Positions 2,737 to 16,641 of a stretch of DNA of 20,076 nucleotides are shown in pieces. Position 1 is the first letter of the stretch. Every line of letters starts with the position of its first letter. A program made the position numbers and the translations under genes. The notes under the pieces are model-generated. The model made no database searches. It had not been told where the DNA came from and saw only the letters and a list, made by a program, of their open reading frames with translations. The stretch spans positions 1 to 20,076 of the IMG/VR virus record IMGVR_UViG_3300027365_000073; one strand, 5' to 3'. The stretch is from a virus.

Positions 2737-3005
2737 ACATCTACTCCAAGCTCAATAAGAGAAGAATCAACTTCATTAAGTCTAATAGTAAGAACTTCCA
2801 TAGTTGCTTCAACCACGTCATCTAAAACACAACACCCGCTCAAGTCTACAACTTCCCCAGAGCCATCATCATGGTTTGAAAGTTGTCCCCAGTAATTATC
2901 ATCTCGTTCTTTCTCGAAATACTTATCACACTTTTCAATTGCAACTATAGTTTTATTTCGTTGCTTAACAAGTTCTTCTACACGTTTGAAATCTTCAAGT
3001 TTCAT
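2733..3005 (-). CDS. Hypothetical protein, 90 residues
   Basis: Not recognised. An acidic protein with a helical, Lys/Glu-rich N-terminal half (FKRVEELVKQRNKT) and a cysteine pair in LSGCCVLDD. I chose the ATG at 3005 over an in-frame ATG four codons upstream, because GAGGTG lies just before the 3005 ATG, whereas the upstream ATG is embedded in the stop codon of the TM2 gene (ATGA). Either start couples translation to that gene. The end overlaps the next start by 4 bases. Confidence 0.65.
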   Translation of the reverse strand: MKLEDFKRVEELVKQRNKTIVAIEKCDKYFEKERDDNYWGQLSNHDDGSGEVVDLSGCCVLDDVVEATMEVLTIRLNEVDSSLIELGVDV

Positions 3006-3013
3006 ATAACACC

Positions 3014-3298
3014 TCATGCAAACCGTGGATCATCTTTGCGAAAACCAATCACAATAGCTTCAATCAAAGCAATCAGCGATGGGATGCCAGTCCACACGAA
3101 TGCAATCATTAGTAAACCAAAGATTACATTAGATCCTCCACCAAGATAGAATCGATGGATGCCCAGACCTCCCAGAAATAGCGCAAGAAGGACAAAGATC
3201 GCTTTACTTTTAGTACCCCTCTCTACCGTCGGATGACCGCACTTGGGACATGCCAGGGCTTCTTCACTCATTTCACTGCCACAATGTTTACAAAACAT
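3014..3298 (-). CDS. Zinc-ribbon plus TM2-domain membrane protein
   Basis: 94 residues from the ATG at 3298, chosen because GGAGAG is correctly spaced before it; an in-frame ATG upstream at 3322 has no such site. Residues 3-20 form a zinc ribbon (CKHC ... CPKC, Cys 3, 6, 17, 20). A TM2-type domain follows, with hydrophobic segments at about 33-48 and 57-86 and the signature GIHRFYLGG (46-54) in the connecting stretch. TM2 proteins are small integral membrane proteins common in bacteria; their role is largely unknown, and the zinc ribbon would face the cytoplasm. In a phage early region, an envelope function such as immunity or host interaction is a guess. It heads the run of coupled genes leading to the RNA ligase. 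Confidence 0.85.
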   Translation of the reverse strand: MFCKHCGSEMSEEALACPKCGHPTVERGTKSKAIFVLLALFLGGLGIHRFYLGGGSNVIFGLLMIAFVWTGIPSLIALIEAIVIGFRKDDPRFA

Positions 3299-3333
3299 AA
3301 TACTCTCCATTTCGTAGTTCATTCTTGATTAGA

Positions 3334-3376
3334 GCTATGGGTCAACCTATATGATCAATCCGGTCCCACCCATAGC
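3334..3376. repeat. 9-bp inverted repeat with 25-base loop
   Basis: GCTATGGGT (3334-3342) and ACCCATAGC (3368-3376) are perfect inverted arms in the 96-base gap between the 133-residue gene and the TM2 gene. There is no T-run after the stem on the minus strand, so it is not a typical terminator. An operator or mRNA structure is possible. Confidence 0.5.
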
Positions 3377-3394
3377 ATTGCTAGAGACGTTTTC

Positions 3395-3796
3395 TCAGAT
3401 GGCTCGACCCACATACCGAGCATATCCATAACCTTCAGTATTCACATAGAACCTATCACCAGAATCTTTGTTGATGACCTCGGTTACCATGGTGTAGCAA
3501 GTGTCCATGAAGATTTCACGAAGTTCCTTGCTGTTGAAGATCTCATTGGGATGATTCACTTTATCAAGACGTGGATCATTGGATGCAGAACCTCCAATGT
3601 AACCCCAGATTGCTTCATTTCCATTGTCCATGAATTCCATACTGAGTCGATTGTAGACAGCATCTCCAACTTCAACTTTACGCATCACTTTACACTTGGT
3701 CACATTATGACCAGCAGCAATCTCATGGTCGGTTTCCTCGAGATCACAAGTTTTGTTGATAGCCGGAAAAGCAACTTTGATTAGGTCGATAGTCAT
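3395..3796 (-). CDS. Hypothetical protein, 133 residues
   Basis: Not recognised. A soluble, mixed-charge protein without membrane segments. It contains an IWGYIGGSASNDPR segment and a YVNTEGYGYARYVG C-terminal stretch rich in aromatic residues and glycine. It has a dedicated promoter (3832-3860) and a leader ending AAGGAACTATATCATG, the shared early-gene module of this phage. That makes it very likely a real, independently expressed early gene. Confidence 0.72.
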   Translation of the reverse strand: MTIDLIKVAFPAINKTCDLEETDHEIAAGHNVTKCKVMRKVEVGDAVYNRLSMEFMDNGNEAIWGYIGGSASNDPRLDKVNHPNEIFNSKELREIFMDTCYTMVTEVINKDSGDRFYVNTEGYGYARYVGRAI

Positions 3797-3831
3797 GATA
3801 TAGTTCCTTCTTCAATTTACCCTACAAGTTT

Positions 3832-3860
3832 ATTCTATCAATGATTGACTTCCGTGTCAA
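3832..3860 (-). promoter_or_regulatory. sigma70-type promoter for the 133-residue gene
   Basis: -35 TTGACA (3855-3860), 17-bp spacer, -10 TAGAAT (3832-3837). The transcript would carry a short leader ending in the common SD/start module. Confidence 0.8.
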
Positions 3861-4435: not shown

Positions 4436-5813
4436 CCCATGAGATGTCGTCAAGTTTCTTTTCTTTACCTTGTGGTTTGTTCTTCCCTACTTTGTTCTTT
4501 ATCTCGTCTGTGGTTGGTTGTTGTGGATTTGAACTTACATCGTAGTAACGCATACGTGTGAAATCGATTCCAACCATTTGTGGTTTAAGTTTAGTCTTAT
4601 TTCCCCACCTAGTTTTCAGTAGATGAATAAGCTGCCTATCGTTTTCTTCCATGACTTCATCGGTTGTCATGGCAATGAACCAATCGCAAGTGGCGGGCAA
4701 TCCAAAGCTTTCCGATGTTGACGTGAGATCAGGTGATGTTTCATTGAAGCCCGATCTATTGATCTGTGTGGCTGTTACTAGAGGTACATCAAATTCAACA
4801 GCAAGACCTCGAAGTTCTTCAGCAATCGCTTTTACATATGAATATGAGTTTACACCATTCATACTCTTATATCTAGACGATGCACAAATGTTAATATAGT
4901 CTACGAAAATGACCTGTGGTTTGAACTTCTTCTTTTGTTTGAGTTCTTTCAATAGATGCCTAAAGTGACCAGCGTGTGCCGCACTTGTTGGATATTCCTT
5001 AGCAAAGAACCGTCCATTAGTTTTACCTTTGATTTTGTTAATACCATTAAGATATTTCTCTTTAGACATTCGTTTAAGATCATCTGTGCTGACATCAAGC
5101 AAGTTGGCTTCTACACGCTCATAGAGAAGTTCCTCAGCCATCTCCATACTGATATAAAGAACATCAATTCCCTGTTTAAGAAACTCACCAGCAAGATAAC
5201 ACATCAATGCGCTTTTGCCGACGTTCGTTCCTGCGAGAATACATGATAGTGATTTCTTCTTTAAACCACCATTTGACAAATCGTTGAGAGCTTTTAATGG
5301 GAATTGGATTCTGTTATCTTCTGCAGTGTACAGTTCATATCGACGTTCAGCATCATCAAAGAATTCCATACCAATAGAACTATCAAATGAAACTCCAAGA
5401 GCAGAATCAAGCATCTCTGGTATGGCATGCTTGTCGTGTTGCTTGTCTGTACCCTCTAGAATATTGATAGACGAATAGATAGCATTATAAATCGCCTTAT
5501 CCTTGCAGTACTCCTCCGTCTCATCAATTAGCCAGTCTGTATCGACAGGTTCATCTTTGTGCTTAGACACCTCCTCTACAACACCCAGAATATCTTCATA
5601 TTCATGCTCAGAGATCTTAGACTTTTGAAGTGTAACCGCAATAGATTCAATATTCGGAATCTTGTTATAACGGTCAAATAGATCTTTATAAATTTTGAAT
5701 AATGAACGATACCCACCATCAAAATATGATTCATCTAGATATGGAATGGTTTTTCGTGAGAAGTCTTCGTCAAATAATAGTCCTTTAAAGATAGATGTTT
5801 CGATTGAGATCAT
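4431..5813 (-). CDS. 41: Replicative DNA helicase, T4 gp41-like (DnaB superfamily)
   Basis: 460 residues, close to T4 gp41 (475 as I recall). An N-terminal helical domain (about 1-150) precedes a RecA-like ATPase core. Walker A is GTNVGKSA (195-202), a Walker B-like VIFVDYIN follows near residue 305, ATQINRSG is the sensor/H3-type segment and LLKTRWGNKTK a likely DNA-loop region. gp41 forms the hexameric 5'-3' helicase of the phage replisome and works with the gp61 primase on the lagging strand. Neither primase nor the gp59 loader is in this window. The start is supported by AAGGG before the ATG. It follows uvsX across a terminator-like hairpin, as 41 lies near uvsX in T4. The stop codon lies inside copy B of the duplicated promoter module. 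Confidence 0.92.
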   Translation of the reverse strand: MISIETSIFKGLLFDEDFSRKTIPYLDESYFDGGYRSLFKIYKDLFDRYNKIPNIESIAVTLQKSKISEHEYEDILGVVEEVSKHKDEPVDTDWLIDETEEYCKDKAIYNAIYSSINILEGTDKQHDKHAIPEMLDSALGVSFDSSIGMEFFDDAERRYELYTAEDNRIQFPLKALNDLSNGGLKKKSLSCILAGTNVGKSALMCYLAGEFLKQGIDVLYISMEMAEELLYERVEANLLDVSTDDLKRMSKEKYLNGINKIKGKTNGRFFAKEYPTSAAHAGHFRHLLKELKQKKKFKPQVIFVDYINICASSRYKSMNGVNSYSYVKAIAEELRGLAVEFDVPLVTATQINRSGFNETSPDLTSTSESFGLPATCDWFIAMTTDEVMEENDRQLIHLLKTRWGNKTKLKPQMVGIDFTRMRYYDVSSNPQQPTTDEIKNKVGKNKPQGKEKKLDDISWD

Positions 5814-7002: not shown

Positions 7003-7938
7003 TTATAGGGTTTCCTCTTTATCTAAGATATTTTTACCAACTTTTAATTTGGCTGGAACTGCATTATTACACACTTGTTTACTAAAGACAATCACATTTT
7101 TCTTTGTTGGATCATTTTTAACTTTTTGTGTTCTCCCATTAAAGTAATCATCACCAGGTTTCGTTTCAGATAATTTATTAATTTCGCCATTAGTCCATTG
7201 TGGGTATTTTAAGTGTTTTAAACTATTTTCGTTTATTGATCCATTGCCTCTATACCATCCTGGACCAGGGCATTCATGAGATCTTGTTGTTTCTTTGCCA
7301 TTAGTCCAAAATTTCATCTTTCCTGTAGTTTTTCCACCTTCAGAACTCCATTTCTTATGTTCTTCTAAATGAAATTGCTTGGCGTTCTCCCAAGATATTT
7401 TACCTGCTTTACTAGAATATTCTTTAACATATTCTTCATTTTGTTCTCTCCATTCTTTAGAATAAAATCCAGATCTAGTACCCGTTAAATTAAGCGCAAG
7501 ACCACCAGCTCTGTTTCTTTCTTTGTTTAAATCGTGTATAGGAATAAAACCAGGTAATACATTTATTAGTTTTCCATCATTGGAAACTAAACGCCCAAAT
7601 TGCTCTATAAGCTTATTTTCTAGTTCATATGCTTCTTTCTCAGTCAATCCATAATCAAAAAGATATACCACTGGAGGTTCATTCATTGTATAAAGATACT
7701 TCATAAGCTTATTCTTAAAAGATTTCTCGTCTCGACACATTAGATGTAAATATGCACGATTGCCTTTACCTTTACCTATATAAAATGGCTCGCCACCATC
7801 ATATAAACCATAAACATAATATGGCATGTCTTCAGAAAGAGAATTTATTACAGATTTGAATGATCTAAATTCTTCGTCAATTATGTCTTTCATATCTAAA
7901 TCAAGACCATCAATCAACCTCTTATTAGCAATATACAT
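7003..7938 (-). CDS. GIY-YIG family endonuclease, probable free-standing homing enzyme
   Basis: 311 residues. The GIY-YIG nuclease domain lies at about 38-125: YVYGLY (41-46), FYIGKGKGNRAYLHL (52-66, with the catalytic-type Arg after the YIGKG strand) and a Glu-containing helix EKEAYELENKLIEQFG (near 100-115). The C-terminal half carries DNA-binding-type modules: SSKAGKISWENAKQFH and SSEGGKTTGKMKFWTNG look like repeats, and WTNG recurs at 211-214 and 248-251, each followed by a Gly/Pro-rich turn. Such W(T/N)NG modules occur in phage homing endonucleases. The base composition looks more AT-rich than in gene 41 or the rIIA region. The stop codon abuts the uvsX start and its last codons carry the uvsX ribosome-binding site. 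Homing is the usual role of such genes; target site unknown. Confidence 0.85.
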   Translation of the reverse strand: MYIANKRLIDGLDLDMKDIIDEEFRSFKSVINSLSEDMPYYVYGLYDGGEPFYIGKGKGNRAYLHLMCRDEKSFKNKLMKYLYTMNEPPVVYLFDYGLTEKEAYELENKLIEQFGRLVSNDGKLINVLPGFIPIHDLNKERNRAGGLALNLTGTRSGFYSKEWREQNEEYVKEYSSKAGKISWENAKQFHLEEHKKWSSEGGKTTGKMKFWTNGKETTRSHECPGPGWYRGNGSINENSLKHLKYPQWTNGEINKLSETKPGDDYFNGRTQKVKNDPTKKNVIVFSKQVCNNAVPAKLKVGKNILDKEETL

Positions 7939-8576: not shown

Positions 8577-11147
8577 TTAGAACAATGTGTTTACATGTTC
8601 TGGAGTCCAATTGATAGCCTTCAAGAAAATCTTGAGTGGTTGCTCAAATGACTTTTCAAAAATGGCATCACGATCGATATACTCTTCAATCTCAAACTCC
8701 TTTGGAAGATACGTATCAAACGCAATGACTGGTTGGTGTGTTGGATTCGGCATCTTCAATTCAATGTACTTAATCTTATTTCCATCTTCAATTGGTTGAA
8801 TGCGGTTTAGACCAAGATCTTTGATCATTTTGTTATGTACAAGAGAAGCCTTAACCTGCTTCGGCGTACCAGACTTATAGAGATTATCCTTGTCATAGTA
8901 CTTGTTGATTCCATTCACACTAGATGGAATAGCAATCATGTTTGCGTCATATGATTTGAATTCTACCTTCACCTCCCGATACCTCTTCTGAAGGCCTTCT
9001 TTGTCACGTAATAGACCATAAAGGTAGAACTCTTCGAGAAGCTCTCGTGCCCACTCAGGGGTGCTAGACTTTACCGATTCCAATCCAGTGAGCTTCATCT
9101 TTGGTTTGCCAGTATAGCGAACACCTTCAGAGTCCCACACATTCATCGTGTATTTTTTCTTAGCAACCCAAATAGCAGTCTCTGAAATGACCTCTCGAGA
9201 CCATACCATCTTTTGCTCATAACAATTTAAATACTCGCATAGTTTATCACACAGTGTTTCAATCTTAGGTTGAATGACTTCATTGCAAAAACGATCAGCA
9301 ATATCTACTTTCTTTTGGATATCTGATTCTTTTACAGTATCCATAAATTCATCGATCCTAATATACATCGAGTCAGTGTCACCGGCGATCCAGTACTTTT
9401 CATTGCTATTGAAAAGCTCTTGCAGAAATACTTCTATTTGACTAGCTGTCCATTTATTAACGAGTTGTCCTGATAATGTGATAGCTTCTGCGTTTTCTAC
9501 CATGTAATATAAGAAATAAGAGCTCGCGAACGCGCCATACCCACTATTCAATAGGATTTTTAGTCCCATTTGCATTGAATTCATTTTAGCTTCAAGATAT
9601 TCACACTGTTTCTTATCAGATTCTGTTTTGACTTTTTGCTTATCAGACTCTGCCTGAAGCATTTTCTTTTTGAATTCATTGCGTGTATTGTATAGATCAC
9701 GCATGATTGCAGAAAAGAAAGATATCTTATCTTTTCGATAGAATTCAAAATTCGGCGTCATTGTTACATTATATTCATCAAGTTTGCTTAGATCTACTTT
9801 CCGATTAAGCACGTCTTCAAATTTATATTTTTCTCGATACTCTATTAGATCTTCAGGTAATTCACTTTCATCAATTCGTGTTTCAGTGCCAATGTTGTAC
9901 TGCATGATGCAATGCGGGTACAGAGAATTTAGATCGTATGAAACAACCCAATCATAAATTCCAGGATTAACTTCTTTAACGAACGCACCTTCAAAATCAC
10001 GTTCTTCTTTTTTCATATGTCTAAACGGCGGAACTTGGTTATTATTGTAAAGATATTTGGCAACGAGTTGTTCCCAGATCTTCACTGTTCCCATTGTATC
10101 TTCATAGTTAGACAGAGTATAATAAGTCATTGCATATACGAGAGCAAACAGCCCAAGCTTTTCATCAAGACGTTTGATGATGTTAACGTCTTGAATATTA
10201 TAATCTAGAAACAGTTGGTAGTTTTTAACGTACAGATCCTGAAGATCACCATACTCTTCATAATTAAGTTTGTTTTCTCCAAGTTCCGCATAAGCAATAA
10301 AATCTAGTTTATATGATTCGCGTGGTGTATAGGTGTGCTTTTTATACACTTGCATATAATCAAGATGAGGCAGTCCAAAGATTTCAACTTTTTGTTGAGT
10401 CTTTCCTCCAAATCCAGATCGTACTTCTTTAATGTCTATCTTATTAAATGGAGAAAGTAATTTAGACGTATATGCTTCACCGAATAGCTTAAAGCAACGA
10501 TTAACGATATAAGGCATATCGAATGATTCTGAGTTCCAACCCGATGTTATATCATATTGGTGATCATTCATATGCGAAAGAAAAGATCGCATTAGATCTT
10601 TTTCTGTTTCGAACTCAAAATACGTAACGTTAAGATCTCGAACTTCGTCAGTTGATTGTTCTTTAGACCAATGATCATCATCTTTGTGCTTAAGCCCAAA
10701 TGTATAGAACATCTTATCAATAGTATCATAAATTGTAATACCGTTGATCGGCCATTCAGCCTGTTCTGGATATGGGAACCCTGATTCTGAGAACACCTCA
10801 ATATCCAAAATACCAACACGGATCATATCGTCTGTATATTCAGGAGATTGTCCTTCGTACAGATCAATCATGAACTGATTCGCGTAGTTGTTGTTTCCTT
10901 CAATGACAAAGTTATCTACATCTTTATACTGATCACCAAAGCTTTTTGCTGCTTTGATCGAGTCAAATTCAATTGGTTTTAGAGAATACCCATAGATAGA
11001 AGTTACATCTGAATCAGTGTCGTTTGATTTCGTATACAGTGTCGGCTTGTACGAATTGATGATCTTAGTTTTAGTGATTGGTTGATCGGGTAGTTTATAT
11101 CTAACGAAAATACGATTGCCTAATTGCTTATAGAATACATATAGCAA
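8577..11147 (-). CDS. 43: DNA polymerase, T4 gp43-like family B
   Basis: 856 residues (T4 gp43 898). The 3'-5' exonuclease domain has Exo I DIEV (115-118), Exo II around NSESFD (205-210) and Exo III YNIQD (Asp320). The polymerase domain has motif A DLNSLYP (405-411), motif B KILLNSGYGAFASS (about 530-543) and motif C GDTDS (589-593). All catalytic carboxylates are present, so both polymerase and proofreading functions should be intact. The C-terminus ends EHVNTLF, where T4/RB69 polymerases carry the peptide that binds the gp45 sliding clamp; the same HVNTLF ends the methyltransferase at 11756-12925. The start is a TTG at 11147, supported by AAGGAG 8 bases upstream; no better ATG is in frame. 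It has its own promoter (11200-11228) and a leader hairpin at 11173-11198, reminiscent of the autogenous operator of T4 gene 43. Confidence 0.95.
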   Translation of the reverse strand: MLYVFYKQLGNRIFVRYKLPDQPITKTKIINSYKPTLYTKSNDTDSDVTSIYGYSLKPIEFDSIKAAKSFGDQYKDVDNFVIEGNNNYANQFMIDLYEGQSPEYTDDMIRVGILDIEVFSESGFPYPEQAEWPINGITIYDTIDKMFYTFGLKHKDDDHWSKEQSTDEVRDLNVTYFEFETEKDLMRSFLSHMNDHQYDITSGWNSESFDMPYIVNRCFKLFGEAYTSKLLSPFNKIDIKEVRSGFGGKTQQKVEIFGLPHLDYMQVYKKHTYTPRESYKLDFIAYAELGENKLNYEEYGDLQDLYVKNYQLFLDYNIQDVNIIKRLDEKLGLFALVYAMTYYTLSNYEDTMGTVKIWEQLVAKYLYNNNQVPPFRHMKKEERDFEGAFVKEVNPGIYDWVVSYDLNSLYPHCIMQYNIGTETRIDESELPEDLIEYREKYKFEDVLNRKVDLSKLDEYNVTMTPNFEFYRKDKISFFSAIMRDLYNTRNEFKKKMLQAESDKQKVKTESDKKQCEYLEAKMNSMQMGLKILLNSGYGAFASSYFLYYMVENAEAITLSGQLVNKWTASQIEVFLQELFNSNEKYWIAGDTDSMYIRIDEFMDTVKESDIQKKVDIADRFCNEVIQPKIETLCDKLCEYLNCYEQKMVWSREVISETAIWVAKKKYTMNVWDSEGVRYTGKPKMKLTGLESVKSSTPEWARELLEEFYLYGLLRDKEGLQKRYREVKVEFKSYDANMIAIPSSVNGINKYYDKDNLYKSGTPKQVKASLVHNKMIKDLGLNRIQPIEDGNKIKYIELKMPNPTHQPVIAFDTYLPKEFEIEEYIDRDAIFEKSFEQPLKIFLKAINWTPEHVNTLF

Positions 11148-11228: not shown

Positions 11229-11747
11229 TCAATAATCGCGTTGAGTATAGCGCTGGTAGTTTTCATAGTTCTTAAGCATATATAGAAGATAAATGTCTTC
11301 TGATTTAAATCCCATTGCAACAAAGATATTGAGAATAAAGTGCCAAACATCGATAAATTCCATCAGCATTTCCATGCGATCATCGTCTGGCATTTCACTT
11401 AGTAGTTCAGAAGTCAGTTTTCCATGATCAGATTTCCAACGCTTCCACACAGCAGACGCAGCCTTTTCACCATTAGACATTCCGCCAATTGATGTTTTGA
11501 GTTCACGATATTCATCAAGGATTGCATCAAAGTTACGATCAATCCAATCAACGAGCTCACCTTTGGTCTGAATATCAGAAGGCTTCATGTTGAATTCTGG
11601 AAGCTTCTCAGCAAGGACTGATTGTAACCACTCCTGAGTATCTAGCATGTCCTGAAGAGGGTCTGGTGAAGACTCGCGCTGGTTCAGGATTTCTTGTACC
11701 TTTTCTTGATCTTTGATTAGATTTGCACAGCTATTAAATTCAGACAT
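11229..11747 (-). CDS. 56: dCTP/dUTP pyrophosphatase, T4 gp56-like
   Basis: 172 residues, essentially the length of T4 gp56. It matches gp56 as I remember it: an FNxCAxLI start, DPLQDMLDTQEWLQ, ILDEYRELKTSIG (metal-binding Glu motif), GMSNGEKAASAVWKRWK, and EFIDVWHFILNIFVAMG (second acidic motif, ExxD), ending in a Tyr/Asn-rich helix. This all-alpha NTP pyrophosphatase hydrolyses dCTP and dUTP to the monophosphates. That keeps cytosine out of phage DNA and supplies dCMP to gp42 and dUMP to thymidylate synthesis. It closes the modification operon, 8 bases after the second methyltransferase, with AAGGA before its ATG. This supports a genome in which hydroxymethylcytosine replaces cytosine. Confidence 0.92.
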   Translation of the reverse strand: MSEFNSCANLIKDQEKVQEILNQRESSPDPLQDMLDTQEWLQSVLAEKLPEFNMKPSDIQTKGELVDWIDRNFDAILDEYRELKTSIGGMSNGEKAASAVWKRWKSDHGKLTSELLSEMPDDDRMEMLMEFIDVWHFILNIFVAMGFKSEDIYLLYMLKNYENYQRYTQRDY

Positions 11748-11755
11748 ACGATTCC

Positions 11756-12925
11756 TTAAAATAATGTATTAACGTGAGAGTTTGATTCGTATTCGACTTC
11801 TTGAGATTTATTATTTTGTTTGATAAAGTTTGAAGTCGACATCGGAAGTTCATTATTCATGAACTTGATAGATTCTATCACCATATCACGAGATGTACAT
11901 ACCGGAACCGTTTGTCCAATATGCTCGTAATTAGTTTTTCCTTTCAACAGTTCAAAATCATGTGGAAATCCCATCATGTGTAGTGCTTCACGAATTGTAA
12001 TGTTTCGTTCTTCAATTGGATGCAGTGTATCTACCATATTACGTGATATCACACCATCCATCACAGACTCATAGATATTGATTGATGAATCCCAGATTTC
12101 ACCTCCATTTGCGTATTTCTCTAAAGCATATGCTCCGAGTTCTTTTGCCTTTTCGTTGTTAGTTTCAACTGCCCAACTATAAAAATCGTTCATCAAATCA
12201 TTCTTGATAATATATTTTAGACATGTTCGATATCCTTTAACTACTGATTGAACATCTCCATATCTATGCTTTAAGAAATGATAAAAAGGTTCATGTTCAA
12301 CCTTGTTTCCAATTTGAATATCATTCTGTAGTTGTATTCCACTCACTGTGCTAATATATTCAGCAAAATCAAGAGACTTACGCCTATAGAAATTCATATA
12401 CGGCGCTGTTTCTGATTTCCATATTACCATGAATGTTCTATAACGGCGTTGTGGAATTCCATGATAATGTGTAGAAGTAAAATACAAAGACATCGAGTAC
12501 CCACGTGATTCAATCATTTCACGAACTTGACTAACGATCGAATCACCGCCAGTTGTATATAAACGTGGTGCGTTTTCAACAATGATAACTTTGGGATCAA
12601 AATTATCCAAAGGAAACTGAATAGACTTATAAATCCATTCGTTCTGTTTGGCAGTTTCGCCTTTCACCTCTTCATTCTTACCCGTATTAAGCATGCTTAA
12701 ACCAGAACAAAGAGGTGTACATACAACTAGATCATATTGATCATCATACGTTTCTTTATCGTTGAGTGTTACAAAATCAACATCTTTCCAATAGTTCTTA
12801 AGATGCGAATCATTATGTTTAAACTCATCATATGTGAATATTTTGCGCGGGAGGTTTCCCGTTGCTTCATACGCACCTAACGGGAAACCTCCACACAATG
12901 GAATGAAAGCTGTCCAATTGACCAT
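11756..12925 (-). CDS. C5-cytosine methyltransferase paralogue 2, with polymerase-like C-terminal HVNTLF
   Basis: 389 residues of the C5-cytosine methyltransferase fold. A divergent motif I PLCGGFPLG (9-17) lacks the usual acidic start. Motif IV is CTPLCSGLS with the nucleophile Cys73, motif VI VENAP (Glu117), motif VIII IPQRRYR (157-163), and motif X GQTVPV, where GNSVP is usual. Between VIII and X lies a recognition-type region of roughly 140 residues. It is clearly related to the gene just upstream (shared CTPxC, ENAP, SLYxTST, HGIPQ, ALHMMGFPHDFELL), so the pair is a tandem duplication. The last six residues, HVNTLF, are identical to those of gp43, which suggests binding to the phage clamp. 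The start follows the upstream stop after one base (TAACATG) with a weak SD, implying coupling. Actual reaction on hmC DNA unknown. Confidence 0.88.
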   Translation of the reverse strand: MVNWTAFIPLCGGFPLGAYEATGNLPRKIFTYDEFKHNDSHLKNYWKDVDFVTLNDKETYDDQYDLVVCTPLCSGLSMLNTGKNEEVKGETAKQNEWIYKSIQFPLDNFDPKVIIVENAPRLYTTGGDSIVSQVREMIESRGYSMSLYFTSTHYHGIPQRRYRTFMVIWKSETAPYMNFYRRKSLDFAEYISTVSGIQLQNDIQIGNKVEHEPFYHFLKHRYGDVQSVVKGYRTCLKYIIKNDLMNDFYSWAVETNNEKAKELGAYALEKYANGGEIWDSSINIYESVMDGVISRNMVDTLHPIEERNITIREALHMMGFPHDFELLKGKTNYEHIGQTVPVCTSRDMVIESIKFMNNELPMSTSNFIKQNNKSQEVEYESNSHVNTLF

Positions 12926-12926
12926 G

Positions 12927-14126
12927 TTAAAGCTCTAATGTATTCGTTGGTTGATCTTCAGAAGATTGATAGTCGATTTTCTGCTTATAGTTATTCTGTT
13001 TAATTAGTGTCGAATCAGACATTTCCAAATCACCATCTAAAAACTTAACAGCTTCTAATACCATATCACGTGCAGTATAGGCTGGAACATTTTGACAGAT
13101 GTGATTCATGTTCTTACGCGATCCGAGTAGTTCAAAATCATGTGGAAATCCCATAATATGCAGAGCTTCTTTAATAGTAAGAGAACGATCTTCTTTTGGA
13201 TGAATTGTAGATATTAGATTGCGTCCAATTAATGCAGCAATTCGATCATCATACACATTCATTGAACCATCCCAAATATTCTTTCCATCGCCAAGTTTCA
13301 TTTTAGCATGCTCAGCTAATTTTAATCCTTTCTCATTATCAGTATCATTAAAGTATTGGATAGCTTCATCTAGTAGATTCTGATGATAGACGTATTGAAA
13401 TGCTGTTTTCTTACCAACTTCTTTTATAGCTTCACGTACATCATCAACTTTAGTTTTTAAGAATAAGAAATACGGATCTTCGAGTAATTTAGGATTAGTC
13501 AGATCACTATTATCATTATCAACTTTACTCAACCAACCTTCAAAGTCTTCACGCTCTCGATCATAATAATTGATAATAGGTGCAGTTGAGCTATTCCATA
13601 AAATAGCGAATGTACGATCACGTGCTTGTGGAATTCCATGAAACATTGTCGATGTCTTGTATAGAGTCATCGAATATCCATGATCTTGTGCAATCTTATA
13701 TAGATTATTAGCTACTTGTTTGCCTTTGGTGGTGTATAGCCCAGGAGCATTTTCGATTAACACTACTTTAGCGTTCAACTTTTCAATAGCATCAGTAGCA
13801 GAAATATACATCCAATCATTCTTTGCACATCCAGCGCCACGTGCTTCTGGTGTCTTTCCAGAATTGAACGATGATAGACCCGCACACGGAGGCGTACACA
13901 TCACAATATCAACATCAGTATAAGAATCTTCTTGTTCTGAAATGTTGATGTAATCAATGTTTCTATTCTTAATCGCATTTTGATAATAAACATAATGTGA
14001 ATCGTTAGCTTCGAATCCAGAATATGAATAGATCGCTTTTGGCGGTTTTTCTAATGCAAGTTCAGCTCCTAGTGGAAAGCCGCCGATGAGTGGAATCACC
14101 GGCGCAAAAGTATATTGAGATGCCAT
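12927..14126 (-). CDS. C5-cytosine methyltransferase paralogue 1
   Basis: 399 residues of the C5-cytosine methyltransferase fold. Divergent motif I PLIGGFPLG (12-20); motif IV CTPPCAGLS with the nucleophile Cys81 (the usual PCQ is PCA); motif VI ENAP (125-128); motif VIII IPQARDR (165-171); late ALHIMGFPHDFELL; motif X HICQNVPAYTARDM, lacking the standard Gly-Asn pair. The C-terminal extension (IKQNN linker, then NTLEL at the end) parallels the linker and NTLF tail of paralogue 2. It sits directly after the glycosyltransferase, overlapping its stop by one base, with AAGGA before the ATG. A classical member would methylate C5 in a specific site. In this hmC-making operon, the target could be residual cytosine, host DNA or a new reaction on hmC (open). 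Confidence 0.88.
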   Translation of the reverse strand: MASQYTFAPVIPLIGGFPLGAELALEKPPKAIYSYSGFEANDSHYVYYQNAIKNRNIDYINISEQEDSYTDVDIVMCTPPCAGLSSFNSGKTPEARGAGCAKNDWMYISATDAIEKLNAKVVLIENAPGLYTTKGKQVANNLYKIAQDHGYSMTLYKTSTMFHGIPQARDRTFAILWNSSTAPIINYYDREREDFEGWLSKVDNDNSDLTNPKLLEDPYFLFLKTKVDDVREAIKEVGKKTAFQYVYHQNLLDEAIQYFNDTDNEKGLKLAEHAKMKLGDGKNIWDGSMNVYDDRIAALIGRNLISTIHPKEDRSLTIKEALHIMGFPHDFELLGSRKNMNHICQNVPAYTARDMVLEAVKFLDGDLEMSDSTLIKQNNYKQKIDYQSSEDQPTNTLEL

Positions 14127-15373
14127 TAAGAATCCTTTTTGATATGTCTGTTAATATTAGACATCAGAGAAGAGAATGTACCGTCTGCCGATTGATGTGA
14201 CTTATAATATTCATATGCCATTTCACGCCAATCATCGCGCATCTGATCATCTTTAGCAAGTTGTTCCATTAGATTGTAACATTCATTCCAATTAGAACCA
14301 TCCTTTTCAATGAATACAGTCCCTGTGTCTTTGTCTTGTGCAATTGGATTGCCTGTTTGTTTATGGTAACAATAATCAAAGTAATTTTTGCGAAATACTG
14401 GAATACATCCGACAGACACAATTTCTGCATGCGTATATTCAATAGAATGTTCAAGGAAACGTGGATCTAGGCGTGATAACTGATAGCCAAAACCGCATTT
14501 AGATAGACGCTCAAGTAGTTCATCATTCTTATAAAAAGAAAATAGCGCTGGAAGTCCATTATAATATGGTTTTAGATCAATGTCTTCGATTTGATCTTTG
14601 AAATGGTTATGAAAATCGTATGATTGCTTGACATTAATGATAGCAGGTGATTGTTCAAGACCTTCAAATGTAATAAGGAAATCGCGACCCATGAGTTCCT
14701 GACAGAACTCGAACATCAGATCATAACCCTTGAAAGGAGCAGTTCGTCCAATCCACTTGTGATGATATGAGTCTTGTTCTGTAATTGGCTTCCAATACTT
14801 TTCACGTACATCTTCAAAATACATTCCAGGTTGGAAATTAATAATGGGAATGTCTTGTGCTTCTGAGGGTTCATCAAATAGACTATTGGCTTCGTGATCA
14901 ATAATAACGTCGTTCTTCTTTAACCAACGAACGAAATCACTATCTTTTGTAGCATGAGAAAAGATAACGTTCGCTGCGCGACATGATTCTTCAATACATC
15001 CATTACGAACAATGGACATATTATTGTGATCATGTTGAATGAATGCCATCTTGCCTTTGGATAGATCGATCAGTTGATTGAAACGTTCTAACACAATTTC
15101 TTTGCTTGATCGAACAGGAGGTAGAGAATTTAGAATAACAACATCAGCATCTTTAACGATTTTTTGTGCTACTTCAAACTCATCGTCTTTTCGAATTGAT
15201 GTCTTGGTAATTTTACTAAAGGAATGTGATTCTTTGCGTGACCAACGCTTATCGTCTACAGCCAAAATGTCGTAGTCATAGTTGTTTTTCTTAAACCATT
15301 TTTCCCATTCGATTGCGAATTTTGTGACACCGCATCCTTCAACTCCACGACCAAGTAAAAGCAAATATTTCAT
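14126..15373 (-). CDS. agt: Glycosyltransferase, T4 alpha-glucosyltransferase-like (hmC-DNA modification)
   Basis: 415 residues (T4 alpha-GT 400). It matches T4 alpha-GT along its length as I remember it: GRGVEGCGVTKFAIE (8-22), DADVVILNSLPP, a QHDH motif (113-116), RAANVIFSH, IINFQPGMYFEDVREKYW, KWIGRTAPFKGYDLMFEF (208-211 IGRT), EGLEQSPAI, GFGYQLSRLDPRFLEHSIEYTHAE and GCIPVF. This is a GT-B fold enzyme that, in T4, transfers glucose from UDP-glucose in alpha linkage to hydroxymethylcytosine in DNA and is known to interact with the gp45 clamp. The sugar used here cannot be read from sequence. AAGGA lies 10 bases before the ATG, and gene 42 ends 13 bases upstream, consistent with one operon making and then glycosylating hmC. 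Confidence 0.9.
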   Translation of the reverse strand: MKYLLLLGRGVEGCGVTKFAIEWEKWFKKNNYDYDILAVDDKRWSRKESHSFSKITKTSIRKDDEFEVAQKIVKDADVVILNSLPPVRSSKEIVLERFNQLIDLSKGKMAFIQHDHNNMSIVRNGCIEESCRAANVIFSHATKDSDFVRWLKKNDVIIDHEANSLFDEPSEAQDIPIINFQPGMYFEDVREKYWKPITEQDSYHHKWIGRTAPFKGYDLMFEFCQELMGRDFLITFEGLEQSPAIINVKQSYDFHNHFKDQIEDIDLKPYYNGLPALFSFYKNDELLERLSKCGFGYQLSRLDPRFLEHSIEYTHAEIVSVGCIPVFRKNYFDYCYHKQTGNPIAQDKDTGTVFIEKDGSNWNECYNLMEQLAKDDQMRDDWREMAYEYYKSHQSADGTFSSLMSNINRHIKKDS

Positions 15374-15386
15374 ATTCTTCTGTTCC

Positions 15387-16064
15387 TTACTTAACTAGAT
15401 GAAAATGACGATCATAAATGTGTGCTGATCCTGCAGTCCAGATAATATCGCCTTTGATGACTTTATCGAACGAGAATTTATTATACTCTTTGACTAACTT
15501 ATCAAGTACATAATTAGCAAACGCCCTGTCATTCTTATATCCATATAGCATATCATTTGAGCGCATTCTTACGTGAAGACTCAAAGCATCATCACGAATA
15601 AAGAATTGATAAGCGTCTGTGCACATAAAATCAGAACGTCCATTATGGTTATAATCATTCCACATTTGAGGACGCGTGAAAATAGCTTGCGCACGACGAG
15701 AGTTTGGATTGTTCAAAAGCTCATGTAGAACATGATCATATTGAAATCCATTTTCACCAGAGAACAAACACCACCCATAGTTAGAATTGATCTTACCATT
15801 CTTATCAGAGACTTGATTCCAAATATCTGGTGTCTTACCTGGGATATCTTTTACATACAATGATTTACTTTCGTACCAAGCAATTTCTCGTTCAACATAA
15901 TCCCAATTCACTTCACCAAAGATTGCATCTTCGTCTGCTAGAAAAGTTAGACCGATAATTTCAATCGTTTTTACACCTGTTTTATCAGTCACAAAATCTT
16001 CATTGTCGAGTCGGTCAATGAATTCACGACGAACGTCATTTACATTTGGCAGAAAATTATTCAT
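15387..16064 (-). CDS. 42: dCMP hydroxymethylase, T4 gp42-like
   Basis: 225 residues of the thymidylate-synthase fold. It tracks T4 gp42 closely: DKTGVKTIEIIG, YESKSLYVKDIPG, INSNYGW, RRAQAIFTRPQMW and SDFMCTDAYQF with the catalytic Cys148. RMRSNDMLYGYKNDRAF places Asp179 where thymidylate synthases have Asn; that Asp gives T4 gp42 its cytosine specificity, and both residues have the T4 numbering. It makes 5-hydroxymethyl-dCMP from dCMP with methylene-tetrahydrofolate. The protein ends soon after HIYDRHFHLVK, about 20 residues earlier than T4 gp42; all active-site residues listed are retained. AAGGAG precedes the ATG with 8-base spacing, and the start overlaps the kinase stop codon (ATGA). 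Confidence 0.95.
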   Translation of the reverse strand: MNNFLPNVNDVRREFIDRLDNEDFVTDKTGVKTIEIIGLTFLADEDAIFGEVNWDYVEREIAWYESKSLYVKDIPGKTPDIWNQVSDKNGKINSNYGWCLFSGENGFQYDHVLHELLNNPNSRRAQAIFTRPQMWNDYNHNGRSDFMCTDAYQFFIRDDALSLHVRMRSNDMLYGYKNDRAFANYVLDKLVKEYNKFSFDKVIKGDIIWTAGSAHIYDRHFHLVK

Positions 16065-16588
16065 TTAAGAAACTCCTTAACAGTTGGAAGTAGATTATCA
16101 AATCCACCATCATTAGTAATATGGTAATGTAATTTATGAGGTACGCAAGAGTTATTATACACCTGTAGAAATCTCTCTGACACTCTCTCGATCATTTCTG
16201 GTTTGATAGAGTATGTATATCCATCCTCTCGCTCAATGATGCCCTCAGGTGAATCTGTGAGGAGAATAAGACGGCAATCAATATCTGACAAGAACTTTCT
16301 TTCAATGTCGTAAACATAGTCAGCAGATTGCTGTCTGAAAACGGGTCCATAGACATCTTCACCAAGATGCGATCTATCTAGAATAACATCCCAACCTTGT
16401 TCACAGAGTGTCCTAGACATCCCTAGAACCTCACTGTAGTGCTCTTGCGACCAGCCCGAATGGTATCCATCAGGTGGAGACACGCAGTGAATAGAAGTCG
16501 TTCTAGGACTAGTCAGGATGCATTTACGAATATCTTTGATGAGAGTTGACTTACCACAATTGTCGTTGCCTTCGATGATAACAATCAT
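16061..16588 (-). CDS. P-loop deoxynucleoside monophosphate kinase (thymidylate-kinase-like)
   Basis: 175 residues from the ATG at 16588 (AGGGA upstream). A longer in-frame start at 16639 would begin inside the terminator stem and is rejected. A Walker A GNDNCGKST lies at 7-15, DRSHLGEDVYGPVF near residue 70 is the DR(S/x) catalytic-region pattern of thymidylate-kinase-like enzymes, and CRLILLTDSPE is a following beta strand. The family phosphorylates dNMP to dNDP. Because the gene overlaps gene 42 by 4 bases and heads the operon, hydroxymethyl-dCMP is the likely substrate, as for T4 gp1. It looks thymidylate-kinase-like rather than like T4 gp1 as I remember it. Substrate is inferred from context. 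Confidence 0.85.
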   Translation of the reverse strand: MIVIIEGNDNCGKSTLIKDIRKCILTSPRTTSIHCVSPPDGYHSGWSQEHYSEVLGMSRTLCEQGWDVILDRSHLGEDVYGPVFRQQSADYVYDIERKFLSDIDCRLILLTDSPEGIIEREDGYTYSIKPEMIERVSERFLQVYNNSCVPHKLHYHITNDGGFDNLLPTVKEFLK

Positions 16589-16617
16589 AATTTTCCCTAT
16601 AGTATAAACGAAACAAA

Positions 16618-16641
16618 GGATGGAGGGAAATCCCTCCATCC
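16618..16641 (-). terminator. Rho-independent terminator after the HTH/acidic protein
   Basis: The minus strand reads GGATGGAGGG, loop ATTT, CCCTCCATCC, then TTTGTTTCGTTT. A 10-bp perfect stem plus T-rich tail, 23 bases after the stop codon of the gene at 16665. It separates the early genes from the modification operon. No consensus promoter is visible between it and the kinase start, so the operon may use a middle (activator-dependent) promoter or leak-through. Confidence 0.9.

Follow-up and report, generated by a model that had tools for sequence, protein, structure and literature searches.

A polymerase-type C-terminal tail points to probable sliding-clamp tethering of a C5-cytosine methyltransferase family protein in an uncultured T4-like virus

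Three proteins of bacteriophage T4, gp43, gp33, and gp55, attach to the sliding clamp gp45 by C-terminal tails that combine hydrophobic with acidic residues and can be freely exchanged for one another, according to the available part of the source (PMC2988020). These T4 proteins end in KASLDFLFG (gp43), TNTLDFLL (gp33), and PSLDFLYEAND (gp55), and the methyltransferases found here in relatives of the virus under study end in LEEFF-like sequences. With regard to base modification in T4, the DNA alpha-glucosyltransferase (alpha-GT) co-purifies with gp45 while the beta-glucosyltransferase (beta-GT) does not bind it, and the larger share of glucosylation attributed to alpha-GT was judged to stem mainly from something other than its binding to the clamp, as given in the accessible portion of that report (PMC13216743, 2026). 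The original prediction for the DNA analysed here had relied on the clamp-binding C-terminal peptide of the T4/RB69 polymerase and on the association of alpha-GT with gp45, and both precedents are borne out by these two sources, as far as their available text goes (PMC2988020, PMC13216743).

The window, i.e., the whole stretch of 20,076 bases that was analysed, comes from an IMG/VR record of an uncultured virus of bacteria and carries T4-like genes on the minus strand (Table 1). M2 belongs to the C5-cytosine methyltransferase family PF00145 by profile, fold, and Pro-Cys motif. Its best matches in the PDB are M.HaeIII, CmoX in second place, and DNMT1, and its fold is also M.HhaI-like. The paralogue M1 is 49-55% identical to the methyltransferases of relatives and is closer than M2 to the single copy that these carry. 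The tandem of M1 and M2 (11756-14126) was found in the window only, with two full methyltransferases at no further locus among the 130 listed, and no alpha-GT homologue was detected at E 1e-5 in those 130 methyltransferase loci. Next to uvsX, the window also encodes a putative homing endonuclease that is GIY-YIG-like by its sequence (7003-7938); in T4, uvsX likewise has a GIY-YIG neighbour, segA.

Table 1. Coordinates of the genes and C-terminal elements of the window
Feature	Position	Strand	Basis
gp43, family B DNA polymerase	8577..11147	minus	ends NWTPEHVNTLF
gp43 tail HVNTLF	8580..8597	minus	read from translation
Nucleotide pyrophosphohydrolase, candidate dCTPase	11229..11747	minus	phrog_173 E=3e-24; dUTPase_2 below cut-off
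M2, C5-cytosine methyltransferase family protein, 389 aa	11756..12925	minus	PF00145 E=1.7e-20; AlphaFold2 model
M2 tail HVNTLF, proposed sliding-clamp-binding motif	11759..11776	minus	same as gp43 tail; matches LxxFF tails of relatives
M2 linker, from conserved QNN to tail, varying among relatives	11777..11809	minus	alignment A3, columns 395-411
M1, paralogous C5-methyltransferase family protein, 399 aa	12927..14126	minus	PF00145 E=1.5e-22
M1 tail NTLEL, altered form	12930..12944	minus	C-terminus and codons read
DNA alpha-glucosyltransferase family protein, without gp43-like tail	14126..15373	minus	PF11440 E=3e-63; phrog_2888
T4 gp42-type dCMP hydroxymethylase, candidate, RSNDMLYGYKND	15387..16064	minus	PF00303; phrog_160; T4 gp42 has RSNDVVFGFRND
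Thymidylate-kinase-like protein, candidate (hm)dCMP kinase	16061..16639	minus	phrog_761 E=4e-11

It is clear that M2 and gp43 share their extreme C-terminus, as had been noticed before: M2 ends in YESNSHVNTLF and gp43 in NWTPEHVNTLF, with the last six residues (HVNTLF) identical in both translations. The 26 proteins of the window form 325 pairs, and in none of the others are even the last three residues the same. The number of pairs with six common terminal residues expected from composition lies between 1.4e-5 and 1.9e-5 for the window, and the identity therefore exceeds chance. Five of the six codons differ between the two genes, all of them synonymously (CAT GTA AAC ACA TTG TTC versus CAC GTT AAT ACA TTA TTT), and no likeness of the DNA is apparent beyond the stop codons of gp43 and M2, indicating that the tail is not a recent DNA copy, a point on which the earlier reading of the codons holds. 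M1 ends in SSEDQPTNTLEL, placed behind a KQNN stretch present in M1 and M2, which agrees with the altered NTLEL end behind a common linker that had been described for it. The codons of NTL (AAT ACA TTA) are common to M1 and M2, and for this reason it is more likely that the tail of M2 arose from the own tail of the methyltransferase family, in parallel to that of gp43, than from gp43 itself.

In the AlphaFold2 model of M2 (pLDDT 84.6), the core is confident and residues 381-389 are unstructured, with a mean pLDDT of 35. The linker ahead of the tail differs in length and sequence among relatives (alignment A3). Judged from both, the tail forms the very end of the protein and follows a linker that is flexible and variable, as a T4-type clamp motif requires. 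It is hydrophobic and equal to the gp43 tail of the window, whereas the acidic residues seen in T4-type tails are missing from it.

The distribution of such tails was followed in IMG/VR using M2 as query (best 80 of 120 relatives), M1 as query (5), and an alignment as query (best 80 of 130), which together gave at least 130 loci, 86 of them sequence-distinct and 85 of these with a complete C-terminus. Among the matches listed for the 86 distinct loci, all 85 complete methyltransferases carry [LI]xxF[FILMY] within the last nine residues (e.g., TTPNLEEFFA, NLEEFFA, NATLEGFFV, and ISTLEEFLV), spanning 18 clusters at 90% identity and 6 at 70%. In an alignment of 20 sequences, the leucine of the tail is invariant in 19 of 19 rows with a letter and the phenylalanine in 18 of 18, the gapped rows being M2 (both columns) and M1 (phenylalanine only). 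The gp43 tails found on methyltransferase contigs (15 loci, six clusters) are of the same kind: VNTLDDFFS, VNTIEDFFS, VASLESFFM, and DTLESFFM. As background, the motif occurs in 49 of 1665 ORFs of 13 records, namely, as listed, in 7 gp43, 9 methyltransferases, 9 proteins similar to T4 beta-GT (BGT-like), and 24 others; the latter, which include a gp55, are drawn from 1640 ORFs outside the three groups. Phage XG4 has duplicated stretches and was therefore excluded from this count. That 85/85 methyltransferases have kept the tail suggests a role for it in the modification of DNA as such.

The last eight residues of every ORF were also scored for their likeness to the gp43 tail of the same record. 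In all five records in which the gp43 C-end and the methyltransferase are both present (G002, G003, G004, G006, and G008, with 61-273 ORFs each), ranks 1 and 2 were taken by the methyltransferase and the gene directly upstream of it; these ranks are approximate, since the ORF caller was simple (stop to stop, longest first) and may miss or add genes, and they correspond to about four independent records, since the tails of G003 and G008 are the same. G003 and G008 are probably one species. The model of the neighbour has a pLDDT of 85, and T4 beta-GT provides its six best PDB matches. Its tail (TLEDFFA and similar) is present in 76 of the 85 loci, among the matches listed, and absent in the other 9, including L238, a doubtful chimera. 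In L238, a methyltransferase-like N-terminus and the C-terminal half of the BGT-like protein are fused within a single ORF (172-1099). An ORF of about 236 aa with a GMKSFFI-like end was set aside as a baseplate hub protein, its likeness being taken as chance.

The tails of the closest polymerases place the short form of the window in context. The gp43 most similar to that of the window (L083, 66% identity) ends in YVNTLF and the next (L159/G011, 50%) in QVSLF, versus VVSLEDFFS in pf16 (47%), indicating that the gp43 tail was shortened in the lineage of the window, where the tail of M2 is shortened too. In L083 (G001), two TAGT glycosyltransferases lie near gp43 (2956-3852 and 4717-5553), the second ending in DIELF; this pair takes the place that is occupied in the window by the methyltransferase/alpha-GT cassette. 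In G011, 4 of 180 ORFs end in LF, and all four are DNA enzymes: gp43, a UvsW-like helicase, a Dda-like helicase, and a TAGT glycosyltransferase. The latter (PF20691) is found together with a Tet_JBP oxygenase (PF12851, E=6e-23) at 66898-69113, adjoining the T4-like gp43, and its end, KVESVSLF, is close to the tail of that polymerase, EEQVSLF. The gp55 of G011 ends in SALLFN, and a clear tail is absent from the gp55 of G002-G004 and G008. The tails of UvsW and Dda were rejected as a general feature, being found in G011 alone, and so was the tail as a trait of DNA glycosyltransferases generally, given its absence in the TAGTs of Aeh1 and Kuja, in T4 alpha-GT and beta-GT, and in the alpha-GT homologue of the window. 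In G011, an intein-like insert (GGCVTEGTRIMLENGDF...) splits uvsX (74532-76727), and gp43 reads as two ORFs in G004 (170396-172440), XG4 (54303-56963), and L166, where the split lies near residue 513 of the window protein.

Homologues of the gp45-type clamp are encoded in G002-G012, XG4, and pf16, and G011, with its short QVSLF polymerase tail, has gp44 and gp45 homologues of its own. No gene for a gp45-type clamp was recognised in the window (20 kb) or found in G001 (39 kb), both of which are fragments. When the tails of gp43 and of the methyltransferase on the same contig are compared, they match only modestly better than shuffled pairings (22 of 5040 permutations with the window and 22 of 720 without it, kinship being ignored), and those of gp43 and the BGT-like protein match no better than shuffled ones (372 of 720, kinship again being ignored). 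Strict covariation was thus discarded as weak outside the window, where the tails share a consensus and not identity, and the claim is accordingly one of a shared motif and not of matched pairs. Independent divergence of the two tails in relatives had been named as the observation that would refute the idea, and it is seen in part: the tails differ around a consensus, and in XG4 gp43 has kept a tail while the methyltransferase has none. In XG4, gp43 ends in EASLDDLFM and gp45 is present, yet neither the methyltransferase nor the BGT-like protein has a tail. This record (PP712099.1, labelled UNVERIFIED) contains many doubled ORFs, e.g., at 71872-88400, some of them on opposite strands with identical C-ends, which looks like an extended inverted duplication or else an error of assembly. 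The distant methyltransferases of S-TIM5 and S-TIM54, a favourable control from one lineage, lack the tail, and no gp43 or gp45 of T4 type is detectable in their records.

The best explanation of these observations, and one that is considered highly probable, is that the tail of M2 is a clamp motif that docks the enzyme on a gp45-type clamp and leads it to modify newly replicated DNA. The last six residues would constitute a sliding-clamp-binding motif of the T4-type gp43 kind, carried on a flexible linker; M2 would dock through HVNTLF on the gp45-type clamp of the phage, which would hold it on newly replicated DNA to work there on cytosines alongside the further enzymes of base modification that the operon encodes. 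In relatives, where methyltransferase and the neighbour with the T4 beta-GT fold both have tails, the tethered unit would be the base-modification apparatus. The gp43 tail of this virus is probably used for holding the sliding clamp, and the conservation of the tail, the ranking, and the T4 precedent together make the clamp tether of M2 well supported by inference from sequence. With the pattern recurring in many relatives, these enzymes may well travel with the replication machinery and modify DNA during its synthesis. A coupling of the modification to the fork is plausible, with the caution from T4 alpha-GT that clamp binding need not determine the extent of modification (PMC13216743). The proposal that the methyltransferase rides the clamp, first made from the window, has gained from the 85/85 tailed methyltransferases and the two top ranks in 5/5 records. 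Counting against it are the tailless methyltransferase and BGT-like protein of XG4, the nine tailless BGT-like neighbours, the altered tail of M1, and the lack of acidic residues in HVNTLF.

It is possible, if somewhat unlikely, that the tail binds the clamp as a generic tether, for local concentration, repair, or a contact with late transcription, with the modification being uncoupled from the passage of the fork. The T4 alpha-GT, for which clamp binding is confirmed without being the main cause of its glucosylation share (PMC13216743, available part), would fit such a role, as would the tailed helicases of G011 and the fact that XG4 manages without a tail; the conservation in 85/85 methyltransferases among the matches listed speaks against it. 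The partner itself could also be a different one, since the short tails (HVNTLF, QVSLF, and SVSLF) resemble the bacterial clamp motifs QLSFF, QMSLL, and DLPLF of MutS proteins (PMC8034640, in the portion available) and might bind the beta clamp of the host instead of a gp45-type phage clamp. This is improbable, given that G011, whose gp43 has one of these short tails, encodes its own gp44 and gp45 homologues and that the long-tailed relatives fit the T4 pattern.

The remaining explanations concern the origin of the likeness. Had recombination transferred the tail from gp43, with drift or a different partner (for instance, as a protease tag) preserving it since then, this would account for an exact identity of six residues that is seen in one genome only. 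However, the synonymous codon differences with no DNA likeness beyond them, the codons common to M1 and M2 through which the M2 tail could stem from that of its family, and the gp43-like tails of all 85 complete relatives listed make this improbable. Chance resemblance between short hydrophobic ends is of negligible probability: such ends do occur elsewhere, as in the baseplate hub protein mentioned above, but about 1e-5 pairs are expected in the window, and for the family as a whole chance is refuted by this expectation and by 85/85 versus 24/1640 other ORFs.

With regard to chemistry, the catalytic motif reads TPLC in M2, while M1 has TPPC, as do 129 other sequences. In motif X, the position that selects the donor (residue 338 in M2), with its register taken from HMMER alignments and PMC12783734, is Gln wherever the pattern was detected, namely in 130 of 133 sequences, and is invariant in alignment A5; the Asn that lies beside the methyl donor in motif X (N304 of M.HhaI) was not found there, being replaced by this Gln. 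An identity with CmoX was rejected, since the family combines TPPC/TPLC with Gln versus SPPC with Arg350 in CmoX, and CmoA (the Cx-SAM synthase, TIGR00740) was detected in 0 of 12 records other than the window. Among the matches listed in the 86 methyltransferase loci, the thymidylate-synthase-family proteins are all of the T4 gp42 type (38/38), i.e., makers of 5-hydroxymethylcytosine (hmC), and the gp42-type signature RSND...GxxND with Asp is present in these 38 and in the window (RSNDMLYGYKND; RSNDVVFGFRND in T4). Thymidylate synthase has Asn where the gp42-type dCMP hydroxymethylase has Asp. The C5 of cytosine should therefore already carry a hydroxymethyl group, which calls the predicted activity, methylation, into question and raises that of the role of a cytosine-C5 enzyme where C5 is already substituted. 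C5-methyltransferases can remove the hydroxymethyl group as formaldehyde (PMC11347137) and couple thiols to hmC (PMC7176277), both according to the available parts of these papers. A tentative and rather unlikely reading is then that these enzymes are clamp-tethered second-tier editors of nascent hmC DNA rather than ordinary methylases. Cytosine would be replaced by hmC before synthesis; the enzyme, on the clamp behind the polymerase, would attack C6 of hmC and remove or exchange the 5-substituent at chosen sites, after which a clamp-tethered or free glucosyltransferase would settle which residues are capped. The invariant Gln of motif X would be the mark of such an altered chemistry.

When compared with the clamp motifs of T4 and RB69 (gp43, gp33, gp55, and DNA ligase, the latter leaving position out of the comparison), the tail of M2 is likewise C-terminal, hydrophobic, and on a linker. 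It differs in being found on a C5-methyltransferase family protein and, in relatives, on a glucosyltransferase of the BGT fold, and in being shortened to NTLF in the window. The T4 alpha-GT is similar as a base-modification enzyme held by the clamp, which for M2 is proposed (PMC13216743, available part), and differs in ending in FDIITK without a gp43-like tail, as does the alpha-GT homologue of the window. T4 beta-GT has the fold of the methyltransferase neighbour in relatives, at about 10% identity, and does not bind gp45, in contrast to the gp43-like tail of that neighbour (PMC13216743, same part). CmoX (8YF3), a DNA cytosine C5-carboxymethyltransferase of a Synechococcus phage, has the C5-methyltransferase fold in common with M2 and is distinguished by SPPC and R350 versus TPPC/TPLC and Gln. 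In the titles and abstract openings surveyed, no earlier report of a clamp-binding phage methyltransferase was found. If the clamp docking of M2 is true, phage base modification would be physically part of the replisome by means of a portable polymerase-type tail, placed on unrelated enzymes (the C5-methyltransferase and BGT folds and, in one record, also TAGT and helicases). This would explain how phage DNA could be protected against nucleases of the host only seconds after being made and would provide a sequence tag for finding unrecognised replisome-bound enzymes in phage genomes. The clamp motif of DNMT1 sits elsewhere in the protein and not in a C-terminal tail as proposed for M2. DNMT1-PCNA also differs in belonging to eukaryotic maintenance methylation with a different clamp, and it is alike in that a clamp motif recruits a cytosine-C5 methyltransferase to freshly made DNA (PMC9690074, in the part available), so that M2 and its clamp, if the proposal is true, would be the viral counterpart of DNMT1-PCNA.
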